Assembly (NCBI GenBank): GCA_003175695.1
Contig: PSRA01000122.1
Location: 1-43,283, forward strand
Direction of reading: 5' to 3'
Length of the DNA: 43,283 nucleotides
Source: Bacteroidota bacterium
GTDB lineage: Bacteria > Bacteroidota > Bacteroidia > Chitinophagales > Chitinophagaceae
In this document: positions 36,952 to 42,369 of the stretch, piece by piece
Layout of the letters: every line of letters begins with the position of its first letter
Position numbering within the stretch: position 1 is the first letter of the stretch
Program-made: the position numbers and the translations under genes
The notes under the pieces: model-generated
Told to the model about the DNA's origin: nothing
What the model saw: only the letters and a program-made list of their open reading frames with translations
The model's database searches: none

Positions 36952-36992
36952 TTGATTACTGCCAGTGAATTTTTATCTTTGAACTGAAATTG

Positions 36993-37343
36993 ATGTGTTT
37001 GAAGTGCAAGGCATCCATATTGTTGGTAGTATTATTTGCCTGGTTATTTGAAAGCATTGCTTTACCTAAGAACTTTTTGGAATCAAGAGTTCATAAGCAT
37101 TATTGTTGTTCGAGTAAAAATGGCAAAAAGCATGATAATCGCCTGCCTGAGCGTTGCCCGGTTAACTGCGACGATCCGCTTTCTGATTGTAACAATTGCC
37201 CTTTATGTTATTCCGGAGTGATATTTGCAATGGCACACATTGTTGATTTTCCTGTGCGATCGAAGAAAGAATATCCTTTTGTTCAAGTGGATTATGTTGT
37301 AGGATATTATTCAAAAGCCTGGAAGCCACCTAATCAGGCTTAA
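36993..37343 (+). CDS. Cys-rich small secreted protein
   Basis: This encodes 116 residues from ATG 36993. A membrane or signal segment (about 8-24) is followed by a cluster of seven Cys between residues 38 and 72 (HYCC, ERCPVNC, DCNNCPLC), a spacing suggesting a bound metal or several disulfides. The remainder is hydrophilic. No family is recognised. It begins 41 bases after GtrA and 44 bases before the next small Cys-rich gene, so the two may be co-transcribed. Confidence 0.6.
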   Translation: MCLKCKASILLVVLFAWLFESIALPKNFLESRVHKHYCCSSKNGKKHDNRLPERCPVNCDDPLSDCNNCPLCYSGVIFAMAHIVDFPVRSKKEYPFVQVDYVVGYYSKAWKPPNQA

Positions 37344-37387: not shown

Positions 37388-37543
37388 ATGAAGAAAATAT
37401 TTTTATTGGCTGTGACAGGTATCCTGTTATCGGGATCTGTAGCATTGGCCAAGGGCAAGCAGCAAGGCTGCAAGAAATGCCCATCACAACACTGCACTAA
37501 ACCATGTCCGGCCTGTCCGACTGGTAGTTGCAAGAAGAGTTAA
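37388..37543 (+). CDS. Cys-rich small exported peptide (51 residues)
   Basis: This encodes 51 residues, too short for many gene callers. The signal peptide (MKKIFLLAVTGILLSGSVALA) is predicted to be cut near ALA-KG. The mature part has six Cys at 28, 31, 36, 40, 43, 48 with basic residues between, so metal binding or disulfide-rich structure is plausible. The start is supported by its signal peptide and by the terminator 22 bases after its stop. I recognise no family. Confidence 0.68.
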   Translation: MKKIFLLAVTGILLSGSVALAKGKQQGCKKCPSQHCTKPCPACPTGSCKKS

Positions 37544-37565
37544 TTCTTTAGATTGAATTCTTCAA

Positions 37566-37597
37566 GGCTGTCTCCAATTTTGGAGGCAGCCTTTTTT
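37566..37597 (+). terminator. Intrinsic terminator after Cys-rich genes
   Basis: Stem GGCTGTCTCC (37566-37575) pairs with GGAGGCAGCC (37582-37591) with one G-U pair, loop of six, then six T (37592-37597). It also lies just past the stop of the convergent sigma-factor gene (37608), for which the reverse orientation lacks a clear T-run. Confidence 0.85.
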
Positions 37598-37607
37598 GTA
37601 AAGTATT

Positions 37608-38873
37608 CTAATTACAATGAAGTATTTTTTCCTGTAGCAATTTTTTTTCTGCTCTCGACTTGGTTTGAGTTAATGCAATAGAGAAGAATTCTTTTGCGAA
37701 ATTTTTATTTCCGGATTTGAAGTACATTTCGGCAAGAGACACATTATAATGGCAATTGTCTTTTAGCTCACTAATTTTCCGCAATTCCCGGATTGCAACA
37801 TCATATCCATCCGTTTCTCCAAGGACGAGGCAACGATTCAAAGCAACCACAGGATTAAAATTAATGGAGAGCAGAAGATCATATAAGCGAAGAATTCTCT
37901 TCCAATCTGTCGCCTCATACGTGCCGGCATTAGCATGAACAGAAGCAATTGCGGCTTCAATATGAAATTCGTGCATGGTGTCTCCACTAGCCGAAAACTC
38001 CAAGTATTCATTTCCTTTTTGGATCAGGTAATGGTTCCAACGATTTCGATCCTGTTCCTTTAAAAGCACAATTGAGCCATTCTCATCGATCCTGGCATCG
38101 AAGCGGGAAGCCTGGTAACACATCAGGCTTAGCAAGGCAAAACTTTGCGGCTGGTTAGTTCTGCGATTTTCAGTTAGTAAAAGCGTCAACCGCATCGCTT
38201 CTTCACAAAGATCTTCCCTGATTAATTTTTCGGGATGTGAGGAATGATAGCCTTCATTAAAGAGCAGGTAAAGTGTTTTCAAAACTGTATCGATTCTCTT
38301 TGGCATAGCCCGGCTACCGGGATAATCAAGAGGAATTTTTTCCTTCCTTAATTTTTCCCTTGTACGATACAGTCTTTTTTGAATCGTTTCTTCATTGCTG
38401 AGAAAAGCATCGGCAATCTCATGGACGCTGAGACCGCAAAGTGTATTCAGGATAAGAGTAATTTGGGCCTCTGTAGAGAATTTGGGATGACAGCATGCGA
38501 ACATCATGCGAAGCTGACTATCCTTGATCTCATCCTCTTTGAACATTTCGTTGACTGTCGGAACGAGTGTGTATTCGGATTTTAGAAGAAAGGAAATTTC
38601 GTTTTCAATTTTGTGCTTAACCTGTTGCCTCCGAATGATGTCAATGACCTTGTTTTTGGCAGTCACATATAGCCAGGCGCGGGGATTCTCGGGAATTTTT
38701 CCGAATCGCCAGGACTCCAAAGCTCTCAAAATGGTGTCCTGAACAATATCTTCTGCTTGTTCGATATTGGGAAAGCCAAACAGGCGGGTTAATACAGCAA
38801 CCATCTTTCCCGCTTCATGACGGAAAAGATGGTCAATGGTTTGGTTAATGTCGGTATGTGCGGTATTTGACAT
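37608..38873 (-). CDS. ECF42-type RNA polymerase sigma factor (DUF6596)
   Basis: This encodes 421 residues. The N-terminal part has sigma-70 region 2 (HLFRHEAGKMVAVLTRLFGF...DIVQDTILRALESW) and region 4 with the HTH (LSVHEIADAFLSNEETIQKRLYRTREKLR). It is followed by the long C-terminal extension with the LFNEGYHSS motif and TPR-like helices characteristic of ECF42. These are typically located beside DGPF/YCII genes, which are found here directly upstream. It redirects RNA polymerase to selected promoters; no anti-sigma factor is adjacent, so control probably resides in the C-terminal extension. It starts 26 bases after the second DGPF gene. Confidence 0.9.
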   Translation of the reverse strand: MSNTAHTDINQTIDHLFRHEAGKMVAVLTRLFGFPNIEQAEDIVQDTILRALESWRFGKIPENPRAWLYVTAKNKVIDIIRRQQVKHKIENEISFLLKSEYTLVPTVNEMFKEDEIKDSQLRMMFACCHPKFSTEAQITLILNTLCGLSVHEIADAFLSNEETIQKRLYRTREKLRKEKIPLDYPGSRAMPKRIDTVLKTLYLLFNEGYHSSHPEKLIREDLCEEAMRLTLLLTENRRTNQPQSFALLSLMCYQASRFDARIDENGSIVLLKEQDRNRWNHYLIQKGNEYLEFSASGDTMHEFHIEAAIASVHANAGTYEATDWKRILRLYDLLLSINFNPVVALNRCLVLGETDGYDVAIRELRKISELKDNCHYNVSLAEMYFKSGNKNFAKEFFSIALTQTKSRAEKKLLQEKILHCN

Positions 38874-38899: not shown

Positions 38900-39241
38900 T
38901 TACATCTTCTGAATCGGCCTGACTTCTACCTTACCATCATTATCGAATATCGGGCAGTCCTTCGATATTTCTACTGCATCATTGATGTCCTTAGCGTTAA
39001 CAATAATGTAACCGCCGACCATTTCTTTGGCTTCGACAAACGGACCATCCGTAACAGCTTTCTTTTTTCCGTTTACTTGTTTGCCAACAGGCTGCAATGG
39101 ATCGCCGGCAACATAAGTGCCTTTTTTATTCATGGCGTCAATCCAATTAAACCATTTTTGCATTTCGGCTTGCGCGGCTTCAGAATTGCGATCCATTTCT
39201 CTTGGACCGGGTCCGCGAAATAAGAAGATGAACTTTTCCAT
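38900..39241 (-). CDS. DGPF/YCII domain protein, ECF42-linked, copy 2
   Basis: This encodes 113 residues. The start MEKFIFLFRGPG and the motif VTDGPFVEAKEMVGGYIIV identify the DGPF (PF03795) protein that accompanies ECF42. It is the middle gene of the sigma unit, 26 bases ahead of the sigma gene. It has its own copy of TGTCCG-N17-CGTCAT, the last T of CGTCAT lying 38 bases before the start codon (39280-39308), so it is likely transcribed by the adjacent sigma factor. Confidence 0.9.
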   Translation of the reverse strand: MEKFIFLFRGPGPREMDRNSEAAQAEMQKWFNWIDAMNKKGTYVAGDPLQPVGKQVNGKKKAVTDGPFVEAKEMVGGYIIVNAKDINDAVEISKDCPIFDNDGKVEVRPIQKM

Positions 39242-39279: not shown

Positions 39280-39308
39280 ATGACGTTTCCAAGGGCAGAA
39301 TCCGGACA
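39280..39308 (-). promoter_or_regulatory. Candidate ECF42 promoter, TGTCCG-N17-CGTCAT, copy 2
   Basis: Minus-strand TGTCCG (39303-39308 as CGGACA) and CGTCAT (39280-39285 as ATGACG) separated by 17 bases. The same 12 specified bases and spacing recur upstream of the other DGPF gene. The -10 CGTC resembles ECF sigma promoters and the -35 resembles the TGTC core reported for ECF42. Confidence 0.6.
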
Positions 39309-39354
39309 TTTGAATTTAAAAGAACTGTATATCCAATATATATGGAGAATCTGG

Positions 39355-39696
39355 TTACCTGGTAATTTCCCGCAGGGGACGGATCTCTAGTTTTCCGTCC
39401 ATTTCGAATATGGGGCAATTTTTTGAAACTGATAGTGCTTCTTCCATATCACGGGCAAGTATGATTGTATATCCTCCAATCATTTCATTTTCTTCGATAA
39501 ACGGGCCATCCGTAACAACCTTGTTCTTACCACTCACCACCATCCCTGTCGGATGCAGCGGCTCGCTTCTTACCAATATATTCCTCGACCTCAATGTTTC
39601 CATCCATTCCAGCCACTTGTTCATGTGATGCTGCATGAGTTCAGGTGAAAGGGCTCTGATATTTCCTCCCCTAAAAAGAAACATGAATTTTTCCAT
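39355..39696 (-). CDS. DGPF/YCII domain protein, ECF42-linked, copy 1
   Basis: This encodes 113 residues, the same length as its neighbour, with the matching MEKFMFLFRG start and VTDGPFIEENEMIGGYTII. It is divergent from copy 2 in the first half. It starts the three-gene minus-strand unit, 113 bases upstream of copy 2. The candidate sigma promoter 39733-39761 lies just ahead. Role unknown; the family is usually encoded with ECF42 sigma factors. Confidence 0.9.
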   Translation of the reverse strand: MEKFMFLFRGGNIRALSPELMQHHMNKWLEWMETLRSRNILVRSEPLHPTGMVVSGKNKVVTDGPFIEENEMIGGYTIILARDMEEALSVSKNCPIFEMDGKLEIRPLREITR

Positions 39697-39732
39697 TGCA
39701 GAGATTTTTTTAATCAGTGGAGTTACAGGGTT

Positions 39733-39761
39733 ATGACGAGTGGTTCAATCCAAATCGGACA
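39733..39761 (-). promoter_or_regulatory. Candidate ECF42 promoter, TGTCCG-N17-CGTCAT, copy 1
   Basis: Minus-strand TGTCCG (39756-39761 as CGGACA) and CGTCAT (39733-39738 as ATGACG) with 17 bases between, the last T 36 bases before the start codon at 39696. It is identical in both boxes and in spacing to the element before copy 2. Confidence 0.6.
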
Positions 39762-39843
39762 ATGTTCACAAAAATTTATTTGTGGCCCCATCCTCTATAA
39801 TAAACAAAGTTTTGTGTACACACCTGCGGGATCAAAAAACTGA

Positions 39844-42369
39844 TTATTCATTGAGCAAATCCTCGAGGCCCGAGATCATATAATGGTGCTCATAAAGGTA
39901 TTGAATCAATGACCCCAATTTATTATAAAATTTATCCTTACGCCTTGGATCAGCACCAGCATGTATTAAGATGATAAATCCATTCAATCCATCCTGTTTT
40001 TGTTGATCTGCCACCAAAATACTTTGCCAAATGGAACTACTGCTCAAATATTCTTTCATGGCAGGATAAGTATAGTCCGCATTGGTTCTGATGCCTGGTG
40101 TAAAACATATCAATTTCATGCCCATTTTTTCTGACCAATTCGCGATACTATCATTCCACCATTCGTAGGGTGGGAGAAAAAATGTTGCCTTTTCCAGATC
40201 AATCCCCGCCAATTTCATTTTCAGTAGATTTTCTTTCAAATCTTTTTGAAACAAAGAACGCGTTACAAGCAACTGATCCCTGTTCTTCCAATCGCAGTAA
40301 AGCAAATGTTTGTTTGAGTGTGGACCGAGGAAATGTCCCTCTGATTTTAATTTTTGGATGGCGGAGGAAAATGCAGGATTGGAGTAAAAATTTCCTGTAA
40401 AAAAGAAGGAAGCTTTTGCGTTGAACCGATGAAGTGCATCTATGATGGTATCCAATCCTTCTCCAAACTCATCTCCGGTAAAAACAATAGATACTTTCTT
40501 AACCAGCGAGTCGCCACGAACAAGCGCCCCATGATCATGAATCCTTCGTGCTTTCGATCCTTCCCTCTTAGCTTCGCCTTCCCTTGAAGCAAGCAGGTAA
40601 ATCAATGAAGCAGTTCCATCCATGGTGGGTTCATTGGTACTGTAATCGCCGTAGTCATCATGGTATACGGCTAAATCACTTTGAAATGGCGCATAGGCAT
40701 CTGGTTTATGCAGTTCTACGCCCAGCAAATGGCTATAAATGCTGGTGTAGACCGGGCCGTCCACCATACCGCCATCTACCGGATAATTTTTAAGATGGGA
40801 AAAAGAAGAATGCGGATCTTCGGGGGTGTCACCCCAGGATGGCAATCCATAAACCATACTGGTTCCCCAGGGATTGCAGCCAAAAAGCCAATCTACACAA
40901 GCTTGTTCCAAGGGCAGGTACCGGGTGTCATGTGATAGTTGTCGATACCAATAGCACTGAATAGCAAATGAAACGGTCAGGTTATTGCTGCACCAAATAA
41001 AAGGTATGCCCCGATAGAACGCGTTCCGGCTTGCTTTTTTCCAAACTCTTTCTATGCCTTCCCGGTAGTATCCAATGAGCTTTTCTTTTTGTTCTCCTGA
41101 CAAAAGTTTGGCCAACTCATAATGTCCGAGATTGATGAATGGATACCATTGGTAATGCCTGGCAGTGTCCTGGCCGAACCAGGGCGTTACAGGTTCTTCA
41201 TCGGCCCATCCGTTAGCCTGAGTCATTAATTGAGAACGATCTTGAAAATTCTTGGCATCTTTATTTTTTGCTGATAACACTTCGGCAGCAGCCAATTCCA
41301 TGTCATCTGTCCAGTTATCTTCTTCATAAAAATACGGCGCTCCGCCCGGTGCAGTTTGGCAAACGCCCGGTTTTCGAATGCCTAACAAGAATGCCTGTTC
41401 TGATTTTTCAAAAATCTTTTTCGCATATTCGGCATCGATAGAATTGAAGAGATTAGCACCTAGCGCAAATGCACTCGAAAATTTACCTGCAGTTGATGCC
41501 ACGCCTGTCGACCTGTTTTTGTATTTTAATAAACCCTGCGGTTCACCGGTGCAGAAATAAACGGGTCGTTCCAATCCTTTTCCATAAAAGTTTGTGTCTT
41601 CTTTTGGAATGCGCATTCCCTTGTGATCTCTGTCGTCCGCTAGTTGGTTGAACATCCAGTCATCCTTTGGAAACATTTTAAGAAGCCAATCAAGGCCCCA
41701 CTTTGCTTCATCCAACACATCCGCTATCCCGTTTTTGCCCTCAAGTCCATTGGCTAGTTTGTCGTCCCCAAATATTTCCGGGAAATCACGATAAGCTGCC
41801 AGCAGGTGATAGGTTGCATTGGCGGACGTAGCAGAATATTGAAGATAGTCTGTCGCGTCGTGCCAGCCACCGGAGACGTCAATATGCGTACCATCGGGCA
41901 CAGGCGCATATACGGTAAAACCATCATGAGTATGACAGGAATCCTTCAAAAAAGGATTGAACCCACTACGCTGCTGGCGCATGTACCGCAGGCAGAAATC
42001 GGCTGTATGATCATAAACGGTATCACTGATAGCAAAGACCGCAGAACGGGTTTTACTGGTTTGAATGTAATAGTGTCCTGGTTTGCCAAAGGAGGAAAAA
42101 TCGAGGCGATAGGTTTGCCTGAATGGGCCGTAAGATCCAAATGCCTTACCCGAAGGGAATGAATAATTCTGCTTTTCATTTTCCGCATTCACCAGTAGGA
42201 AACTGTCGATGTGATTTTCGAGCTTAGTTCCCCAGACAGCTGTTTTGTTACCTTTCAAAGTATAGCCAAGTTGATTGACTCTTATCCAGGTTTGGATAGT
42301 CGGGCTTTGCGCCATTGATTGAGAAGAAAAGGCAAATGCAAGTATGGTGAGTACTCTTTGTACGGTCAT
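39844..42369 (-). CDS. GH9 glycoside hydrolase fused to CE4 polysaccharide deacetylase
   Basis: This encodes 841 residues with a signal peptide (ends SQSMAQ). An Ig-like CelD_N domain (about 25-105, IRVNQLGYTLKGNKTAVW) precedes the GH9 catalytic domain, with GGWHDATDY (D171, D174) and the acid E580 in STNEPTMDG. A NodB-type deacetylase domain follows after about 625: D633 (TGDE), H684 and H688 (GPHSNKH), and the LPPYEWW and LIHAG blocks. The protein may cleave and deacetylate one polymer such as an acetylated glucan or chitosan-like chain. It is the second gene of a two-gene unit, 50 bases after the GH5-like enzyme. Confidence 0.85.
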   Translation of the reverse strand: MTVQRVLTILAFAFSSQSMAQSPTIQTWIRVNQLGYTLKGNKTAVWGTKLENHIDSFLLVNAENEKQNYSFPSGKAFGSYGPFRQTYRLDFSSFGKPGHYYIQTSKTRSAVFAISDTVYDHTADFCLRYMRQQRSGFNPFLKDSCHTHDGFTVYAPVPDGTHIDVSGGWHDATDYLQYSATSANATYHLLAAYRDFPEIFGDDKLANGLEGKNGIADVLDEAKWGLDWLLKMFPKDDWMFNQLADDRDHKGMRIPKEDTNFYGKGLERPVYFCTGEPQGLLKYKNRSTGVASTAGKFSSAFALGANLFNSIDAEYAKKIFEKSEQAFLLGIRKPGVCQTAPGGAPYFYEEDNWTDDMELAAAEVLSAKNKDAKNFQDRSQLMTQANGWADEEPVTPWFGQDTARHYQWYPFINLGHYELAKLLSGEQKEKLIGYYREGIERVWKKASRNAFYRGIPFIWCSNNLTVSFAIQCYWYRQLSHDTRYLPLEQACVDWLFGCNPWGTSMVYGLPSWGDTPEDPHSSFSHLKNYPVDGGMVDGPVYTSIYSHLLGVELHKPDAYAPFQSDLAVYHDDYGDYSTNEPTMDGTASLIYLLASREGEAKREGSKARRIHDHGALVRGDSLVKKVSIVFTGDEFGEGLDTIIDALHRFNAKASFFFTGNFYSNPAFSSAIQKLKSEGHFLGPHSNKHLLYCDWKNRDQLLVTRSLFQKDLKENLLKMKLAGIDLEKATFFLPPYEWWNDSIANWSEKMGMKLICFTPGIRTNADYTYPAMKEYLSSSSIWQSILVADQQKQDGLNGFIILIHAGADPRRKDKFYNKLGSLIQYLYEHHYMISGLEDLLNE

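Follow-up and report, generated by a model that had tools for sequence, protein, structure and literature searches.

Which sigma factor reads a sequence element that stands in two identical copies before two neighboring DGPF genes? The question is raised by a single operon in the window, that is, the whole stretch of 43,283 nucleotides of Bacteroidota DNA analyzed here. From the comparisons reported below, we consider it very probable that both copies, designated P1 and P2, serve as promoters for the ECF42 sigma factor whose gene closes their own operon, an arrangement that would form a self-activating loop. We infer a start of transcription at the CGTCAT boxes, the use of this sigma, and positive feedback from sequence comparison.

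Two copies of a promoter-like element

In the preliminary description, TGTCCG-N17-CGTCAT was placed twice on the minus strand, at 39761 to 39733 and at 39308 to 39280, with the CGTCAT boxes ending 36 and 38 bases before the ATG codons at 39696 and 39241. Both the coordinates and the distances were reproduced. No third TGTCCG-N16-18-CGTCAT was found anywhere else in the window. The parts of the two candidate promoters are as follows.

39756..39761, minus strand: -35 element TGTCCG of P1 (P1 motif score, 20.5)
39733..39738, minus strand: -10 element CGTCAT of P1, 36 bases ahead of the DGPF1 ATG
39770..39781, minus strand: A/T tract AAATAAATTTTT upstream of P1, positioned like a proximal UP element
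39303..39308, minus strand: -35 element TGTCCG of P2, the putative internal promoter (P2 motif score, 16.6)
39280..39285, minus strand: -10 element CGTCAT of P2, 38 bases ahead of the DGPF2 ATG
39313..39324, minus strand: A/T-rich stretch TTCTTTTAAATT upstream of P2, a weaker match to the tract

The element had been described as bipartite. Both boxes are real, but as read from the aligned loci the element is tripartite, consisting of an A6T4-like tract, TGTCC, a spacer, and CGTCAT, about 40 bases ahead of the DGPF start.

The repeat had also been called unlikely by chance. The exact pattern appeared in none of 100 dinucleotide shuffles of the whole window. When any repeated 6-N-6 dimer was allowed (any 6-mers, gap of 10 to 25), 97 of 1,000 shuffles of the 482 bases contained one. 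Since the pattern was picked after it had been seen, and since shuffles yielded some dimer at this rate, the repeat alone is suggestive, not decisive. Requiring an equal offset to both ATG codons (within 3 bases) lowered the frequency to 5 of 3,000 shuffles. Thus, the earlier statement holds in part.

The operon and its sigma factor

On the minus strand, the genes run in the order DGPF1, DGPF2, sigma. The features of the operon that matter here are given below.

39355..39696, minus strand: DGPF1, YCII-family protein of 113 amino acids, probably an extra copy (YCII [PF03795] match)
38900..39241, minus strand: DGPF2, YCII-family protein of 113 amino acids, the conserved partner of the sigma gene (YCII [PF03795] match)
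37608..38873, minus strand: ECF42-type sigma factor of 421 amino acids (Sigma70_r2, Sigma70_r4_2 below its cut-off, DUF6596)
38640..38642, minus strand: codon of sigma residue D78 (region 2.4), the proposed reader of -10 base 1
38376..38378, minus strand: codon of sigma residue K166 (region 4 recognition helix), which goes with TGTCC and not with TGTCG
37564..37593, plus strand: terminator-like hairpin of 13 pairs followed by a T tract, directly past the sigma stop

Three terminator-like sites were counted in the region, against a shuffle mean of 2.3.

In Pfam, the sigma factor matched Sigma70_r2 above the cut-off. The match to Sigma70_r4_2 (E of 1.5e-4) reached 21.8 bits against a cut-off of 25.7, and region 4 is therefore the weaker call. 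DUF6596 covered residues 193 to 293 (E of 3.3e-35), which corresponds to the C-terminal extension of ECF42 sigmas, some 200 residues long and rich in TPRs in the members described, and the YCII/DGPF neighbor typical of the group is represented by the two YCII genes directly upstream. No TPR family was found by Pfam at an E value of 0.001, and no ECF42 model was named among the best 25 of 67 NCBIfam matches. Taken as predicted domains, the set is the ECF42 architecture, and the adjacent gene had accordingly been named correctly as an ECF42-type sigma on the strength of Sigma70_r2, the sub-threshold Sigma70_r4_2, and DUF6596.

In the mechanism that we propose, region 4 of the ECF42 sigma, with K166 in its recognition helix, would bind TGTCC, and region 2 would read the first base of CGTCAT via D78. 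The A/T tract would sit at the position of an UP element upstream of P1 and P2. P2 would drive the conserved DGPF2-sigma unit, while P1 would drive the added DGPF1 and could run on into DGPF2 and the sigma gene. Once active, the sigma would raise the synthesis of itself and of both DGPF proteins.

Comparison with known ECF promoters

The -35 and -10 letters and their spacing match ECF41 and ECF42 promoters, which agrees with the earlier remark that the spacing and the CGTC box suit an ECF sigma. As in ECF42-type promoters, a -35 TGTC and a -10 CGTC are separated by 19 bases between the tetramers. The fifth -35 base, which is G (TGTCG) in Sinorhizobium, is C in the window. These letters make the element the Bacteroidota version of the ECF42 promoter already known.

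A close parallel is the ECF42 sigma RpoE10 of S. meliloti. Among its targets with mapped starts, SMb20475 has TGTCGG-N17-CGTCAT and SMc01149 has TGTCGG-N17-CGTCCT (PMC6180224). There, as here, the ECF42 sigma adjoins a YCII gene, and the window element differs from the SMb20475 promoter by one base. In contrast to that system, the window has C for G as the fifth -35 base, a site for each of its two DGPF genes, and an upstream A/T tract. Overexpression of RpoE10 did not raise its own YCII-sigma operon (PMC6180224), so autoregulation is not universal among ECF42 sigmas.

Streptomyces venezuelae has an ECF42 sigma whose C-terminal extension spans about 200 residues and which has a YCII-family gene nearby (PMC8999054). 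The window sigma resembles it in both the extension and the YCII neighbor, although the S. venezuelae system is actinobacterial. It has been proposed that a partner protein, perhaps YCII itself, switches the ECF42 extensions (PMC8999054). At four Streptomycetaceae loci and one Rhodococcus plasmid locus, no site of the window form was found ahead of the sigma gene. Liu et al. are said to have given the letters TGTCGA for the S. venezuelae ECF42 promoter in 2018.

Autoregulated ECF41 promoters carry TGTCACA at -35 and CGTC at -10 with a spacer of 16 ± 1 (Wecke et al. 2012, PMC3426412). The likeness to the window covers the TGTC and CGTC boxes, the frequent order of partner gene first and sigma gene second, and a C-terminal part fused to the sigma. 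ECF41 is set apart from the window by its -35 TGTCACA, by a SnoaL-like extension, and by a partner that is a carboxymuconolactone decarboxylase, an oxidoreductase, or an epimerase. No Bacteroidota ECF42 promoter was found in the literature searched, whose reach did not extend to Casas-Pastor et al. 2021 and Todor et al. 2020.

The operator of some transcription factor, with a housekeeping sigma driving transcription, could likewise appear as a bipartite site that is repeated at a set distance from the start codon. The halves of the element are nevertheless not palindromic, its letters and spacing are those of ECF41 and ECF42 -35 and -10 boxes, and no TTTG/TAnnTTTG-type site was found within 150 bases before either gene. 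The letters also couple to region 2 of the sigma, as reported below. We hold an operator to be highly improbable and continue with the reading of P1 and P2 as ECF42 promoters.

Recurrence of the element in other genomes

The element was followed in a first set of 58 genomes, the source genome included. A match at an E value of 0.001 was obtained in 50 of them, many of these being weak matches to other sigmas. A second set consisted of the best 80 of at least 586 named loci from a separate search. By record title, these were mostly Bacteroidota, with a few Acidobacteria, one Ignavibacteria, one "Proteobacteria," and one Planctomycete. A YCII frame was present in 88 of 92 first-set entries and at 72 of 80 second-set loci.

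For the first set, the 120 bases ahead of 96 YCII starts were used. Left out were L020, which shares its place with L049, one upstream more than 80% identical (reducing 97 to 96), and five YCII frames without a settable start. Among gapped dimers sought de novo in the 96 upstreams, TGTC-N20-GTCAT occurred 12 times, TGTC-N19-CGTCA 11 times, and AAAA-N13-TGTCC 19 times, whereas in 10 shuffled sets the top count over all dimers was 6 to 8. The two-block motif learned from this set was TGTCC, 16 bases, and NTYGTYAT. It scored at least 12 in 57 of 96 upstreams; the spacing was the common one in 52 of these 57, and the site lay 25 to 45 bases from the ATG in 47 of the 57. Because refits of the motif on shuffled sequence often gave scores of 8 to 9, the claim of conservation is restricted to scores of at least 12.

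In the second set, three of 81 YCII frames were dropped for want of a usable upstream, leaving 78. The first-set motif scored at least 12 in 61 of these 78 YCII upstreams, compared with 0.4% of shuffles, and in 56 of 69 once loci shared with the first set were removed. Six loci of the second set (L139, L188, L191, L202, L211, and L216) lie on contigs that also occur in the first set. They are counted in the 61 of 78 and in the 112-element figures below but are excluded from the 102 aligned elements, the residue-base tallies, and the coupling and tree tests. This motif test bears on chance resemblance, which could appeal to the roughly 10% of region shuffles that contained some repeated dimer. 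Other genomes of the phylum have the element in the same position, so that chance resemblance is hardly credible, and we regard it as excluded by the test on the second set.

Across 102 aligned elements, TGTCC was almost invariant, with C as the fifth -35 base in 98%. The next two letters were most often GG (26/102), and the -10 consensus was TTCGTCAT. AAAA lay between positions -20 and -7 upstream of TGTCC in 63% of the 112 elements, compared with a mean of 18% and a maximum of 26% in mononucleotide shuffles, and in 68 of 107 elements after removal of repeats. Column counts over the 112 elements gave an A run followed by a T run. The tract resembles a proximal UP element.

The eight closest ortholog loci with the region present (L139 to L146, from the best 80 of at least 586) encode sigmas 66 to 70% identical to that of the window. 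The site was found by scan at seven of them. At the eighth, L141, TGTCCGG...TCGTAATA was seen by eye beyond a misplaced start. Hence, presence at orthologous loci, one of the points on which the preliminary description had staked its proposal, was found at seven loci by scan and at one by eye.

Thirty-six of 90 first-set sigma rows had no site scoring at least 12 within 120 bases of a YCII start. Among them, L081 and L091 carry the site before an upstream dehydrogenase gene, and L096 is truncated by a contig end. A third set came from 148 genomes of the phylum, 32 of which gave matches, and its 35 loci were scanned with the base-1 column masked. Three loci had no YCII gene; 11 of the 32 loci having a YCII gene scored below 10, and 21 sites remained. 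A strict search for TGTCSG-N16-18-CGTC found the pattern at 3 of 103 YCII genes. This result was not taken against conservation, since start codons had been misplaced and the fixed sixth base was too strict.

In general, the element had been proposed as a candidate autoregulon promoter, and this stands insofar as the same element recurs with the same spacing and at a similar distance from the DGPF/YCII start before ECF42 operons in many Bacteroidota, but autoregulation is something that we infer.

Paralogs in the source genome

The source genome (4.58 Mb, 275 contigs, 78.8% complete) encodes three full-length ECF42 sigmas, each with a YCII gene beside it, and has seven YCII matches overall. 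A search of this genome had been recommended, and it found the strict pattern TGTCCG-N16-18-CGTCAT only at the two window sites and at C215:13531, where the spacing is 16. The C215 match lies inside an 809-codon open frame of the opposite strand. The looser TGTCC-N17-19-CGTCAT gave the same three matches, against four for the reversed pattern.

Each paralog has a related site of its own. The site of the C89 paralog is TTTGTTAT and that of the C264 paralog is TTTGTCAT. Ahead of the second YCII gene of C264 stands TGTCCC-N17-TGTCAT; the motif scan found no site upstream of the first YCII gene of that paralog. The window sigma has D78, and C is the first -10 base in both window sites, whereas the two paralogs have N78 and T.

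Several related genomes appear richer in such sigmas. Between 10 and 15 matches to the window sigma were obtained in each of G002, G007, G009, and G014, some of them weak matches to other sigmas, and an expansion of ECF42 paralogs is apparent in these genomes of the same genus.

Coupling of sigma residue 78 to the first -10 base

If the sigma of each operon reads its own promoter, promoter letters should change along with the protein. On the sigma tree of the first set, the -10 tetramer required 16 changes, while shuffles required 30.4 on average and 25 at minimum (0 of 300 as low). A weaker signal came from the two bases that follow TGTCC (23 changes versus 30.5, 0/300), and two control letters from the spacer required 32 versus 34.9 (12/300). 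When sigma columns were compared with the variable promoter positions over 101 pairs, residue 78 and -10 base 1 stood out with a z of 6.1. The next combination, residue 81 and the same base, reached 4.3, and no others exceeded 4.0. No one sigma residue was set apart in this way for the fourth -10 base or for the bases that follow TGTCC.

Residues were counted at sites scoring at least 12 in the first set and at least 10 in the second and third sets. The combinations of residue 78 and -10 base 1 were as follows.

First set (54 of 90 sigma rows with a site): D/C 19, N/T 28, N/C 1, T/A 1, T/T 1, T/G 1, Y/C 3
Second set without repeats: D/C 51, N/T 4, T/A 2
Third set: D/C 5, N/T 15, Y/C 1

With the three sets pooled, D78 went with C in 75 of 75 cases and N78 with T in 47 of 48. 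The sole N/C exception, L054 (spacing of 15, score of 13.3), was retained. The few rows with T at residue 78 had A in three cases, T in one, and G in one, and a single E (L245) went with CGTC. Among the 132 pooled rows, one pair was at least 95% identical.

Shared ancestry was taken into account with a quick tree. By parsimony, six D/N changes and seven base changes fit seven joint changes. In 2,000 random placements of six changes, with at least 20 rows per state, the minimum was 10 joint changes and none was as good. Of 555 residue splits, the one at residue 78 fitted best, agreeing in 122 of 123 rows; residue 81 came second with 114. An independent-pairs sign test was nonsignificant (3 to 4 starred pairs, 6 overall), and 3 to 6 pairs are too few for significance; the branch-placement null is the stronger test.

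These counts bear on which sigma uses the window sites. The presence of three full-length ECF42 sigmas in the genome and the TGTCC common to nearly all Bacteroidota sites found would fit cross-regulation, in which the sites are mainly promoters of another ECF sigma of the same genome, such as the C89 or C264 paralog. Against this, the paralog sites have T with N78 and the window sites C with D78, and the D/C and N/T pairing holds in 122 of 123 pairs. Cross-regulation is thus very unlikely. Direct reading of the sites by the ECF42 sigma of the operon is supported by the residue-base coupling.

Known structures give some context for residue 78. Counted along an alignment with Mtb SigL, residue 78 falls on D79 and residue 81 on R82. 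In SigH, N92, eleven residues past the conserved Trp, contacts the template base at -11 (PMC6411747). The reading of C by Asp and of T (template A) by Asn would be chemically plausible. The coupling bears on what reads the C at "-14," a point left open by the SigL structure paper (PMC6372665). The more interesting by-product of this work is the one-residue, one-base coupling.

The sigmas with Tyr78 (L077, L086, L088, and L258) go with a CATT box in place of CGTC, which means that the box differs at its second base as well. L279, with Asn, has TATT.

Residue 166 and the fifth -35 base

The second position of interest lies in region 4. A comparison sample of 20 ECF42 plasmid loci from other phyla was examined for sites ahead of the sigma gene. 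A TGTCG...CGT site with 19 bases between the tetramers was found at nine of them (L232, L236 to L240, L242, L244, and L245), and residue 166 was Gln in all nine. Six of these sites stand just before a YCII-like gene, those of L242 and L245 before another gene that leads the operon, and the placing of L240 is unclear. L241 (Paraburkholderia) has TGTCCA with Lys166. No such site was found at 10 of the 20 loci, namely one P. putida, three cyanobacterial, one Nitratireductor, four Streptomycetaceae, and one Rhodococcus locus, where residue 166 was Gln in six, Arg in two, and Ala in two.

The ECF42 sigma gene of L228, a P. putida plasmid locus, has no annotated YCII gene next to it; it lies between two IS6100 copies, beside an MBL-fold hydrolase gene.

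In Bacteroidota, residue 166 was Lys in 65 of 65 second-set rows (L139 to L203, repeats included, site or no site). Among the 54 first-set rows that have a site, 53 had Lys; L063, with the weak site TGTAC, did not. The acidobacterial loci L205, L212, and L217 have TGTCCG with Lys166. Residue 166, as K or Q, therefore appears associated with TGTCC or TGTCG, with few independent changes behind the association.

Todor et al., in PNAS in 2020, reportedly used autoregulation to pair ECF sigmas with their promoters and derived amino acid-base rules. For ECF42 sigmas, we lean slightly toward a portable two-letter code made up of residues 78 and 166, in which changes of residue 78 insulate paralog loops. 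In this code, residue 78 would set -10 base 1, with Asp for C, Asn for T, and perhaps Thr for A, and Tyr78 would go with the CATT box. Residue 166 would set the fifth -35 base, with Lys for C and Gln for G. In Bacteroidota genomes with several paralogs, changes of residue 78 could then insulate the self-activating loops from one another.

Probable origin of the two promoter-DGPF units

The window has two promoter-DGPF units, while the eight closest ortholog loci have a single DGPF gene each within the fetched flanks. DGPF2 is 54 to 66% identical to these eight proteins and DGPF1 49 to 55%; DGPF1 and DGPF2 share 47% identity with one another (53 of 113 residues). With DGPF2 as the conserved partner gene, P2 would be the ancestral promoter. 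Hence, P2-DGPF2-sigma is probably the ancestral unit, and P1-DGPF1 an added unit with its own promoter.

Tandem DGPF genes with the same element, next to a single DGPF gene at each of the eight closest loci (fetched flanks), might also mean that the second element is the leftover of a tandem duplication of promoter and DGPF, with only one of the two in use. The spacers are nevertheless unlike outside the 12 bases, and the two proteins share only the 53 of 113 residues. The elements as a mere mark of recent duplication were therefore set aside. That the boxes persisted while the sequence around them drifted is suggestive of selection on both. The Ignavibacteria-labelled locus L179 likewise has own sites for two of its three YCII genes (scores of 17.6 and 12.5), so internal sites also occur elsewhere. 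A duplication leftover is thus unlikely, and the reading of P1 and P2 as two promoters in use is preferred. In the first-set loci L035, L038, L039, and L065, which also have tandem YCII genes before the sigma, no convincing site precedes the later genes, which score at most 12.5 and have poor -10 letters.

Size of the regulon

A Bacteroidota ECF42 promoter motif should make target genes predictable from genomes, and ECF42 is a widespread sigma group. A scan of the 58 genomes with TTGTCC-N17/18-CGTCATW gave 40 matches, compared with 56 for the reversed pattern. Twelve of the 40 stand ahead of a gene that matches the YCII profile; at ECF42 loci, two more precede a short-chain dehydrogenase gene, and one further match lies ahead of a SnoaL-like gene. 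The longer spacing was found in 13 of these 15 well-placed matches versus 20 of 40 overall. Overlap with an open frame of more than 150 codons was seen in 22 of the other 25 matches and in 8 of the 15 well-placed ones. Thus, the search of related genomes suggested in the preliminary description recovered YCII genes; the pattern is enriched by its placement but not genome-wide. A large regulon was set aside, since the strict pattern is no commoner genome-wide than its reversed form. The motif points instead to a very small regulon, made up of the loop itself and, in some relatives, a SnoaL-like or dehydrogenase gene.

The genes of L112 and L219 were checked against Pfam, and that of L115 was assigned by likeness to L112. 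L112 and L115 (G009:C2 and G014:C10) are ECF42 loci with the site before a short-chain dehydrogenase gene instead of a YCII gene; at L112, a DUF4440 gene comes after the dehydrogenase gene. In the nearest relative, G015, a SnoaL-like gene lies on another contig (L219, 1279-1632, minus strand), with TTGTCC-N18-CGTCATA 40 bases before its ATG, and is a candidate second target.

Other genes in the window

Two further observations concern the neighborhood of the operon. On the plus strand, a frame at 37388-37543 encodes a 51-amino-acid peptide with a signal-like start, six Cys, and no Pfam match; it is preceded by a Cys-rich frame of 117 amino acids at 36990-37343 and followed by a 13-pair hairpin with a T tract. 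On the minus strand, an 841-amino-acid frame at 39844-42369 encodes a single protein in which CelD_N is joined to a family 9 glycosyl hydrolase and to a polysaccharide deacetylase domain.
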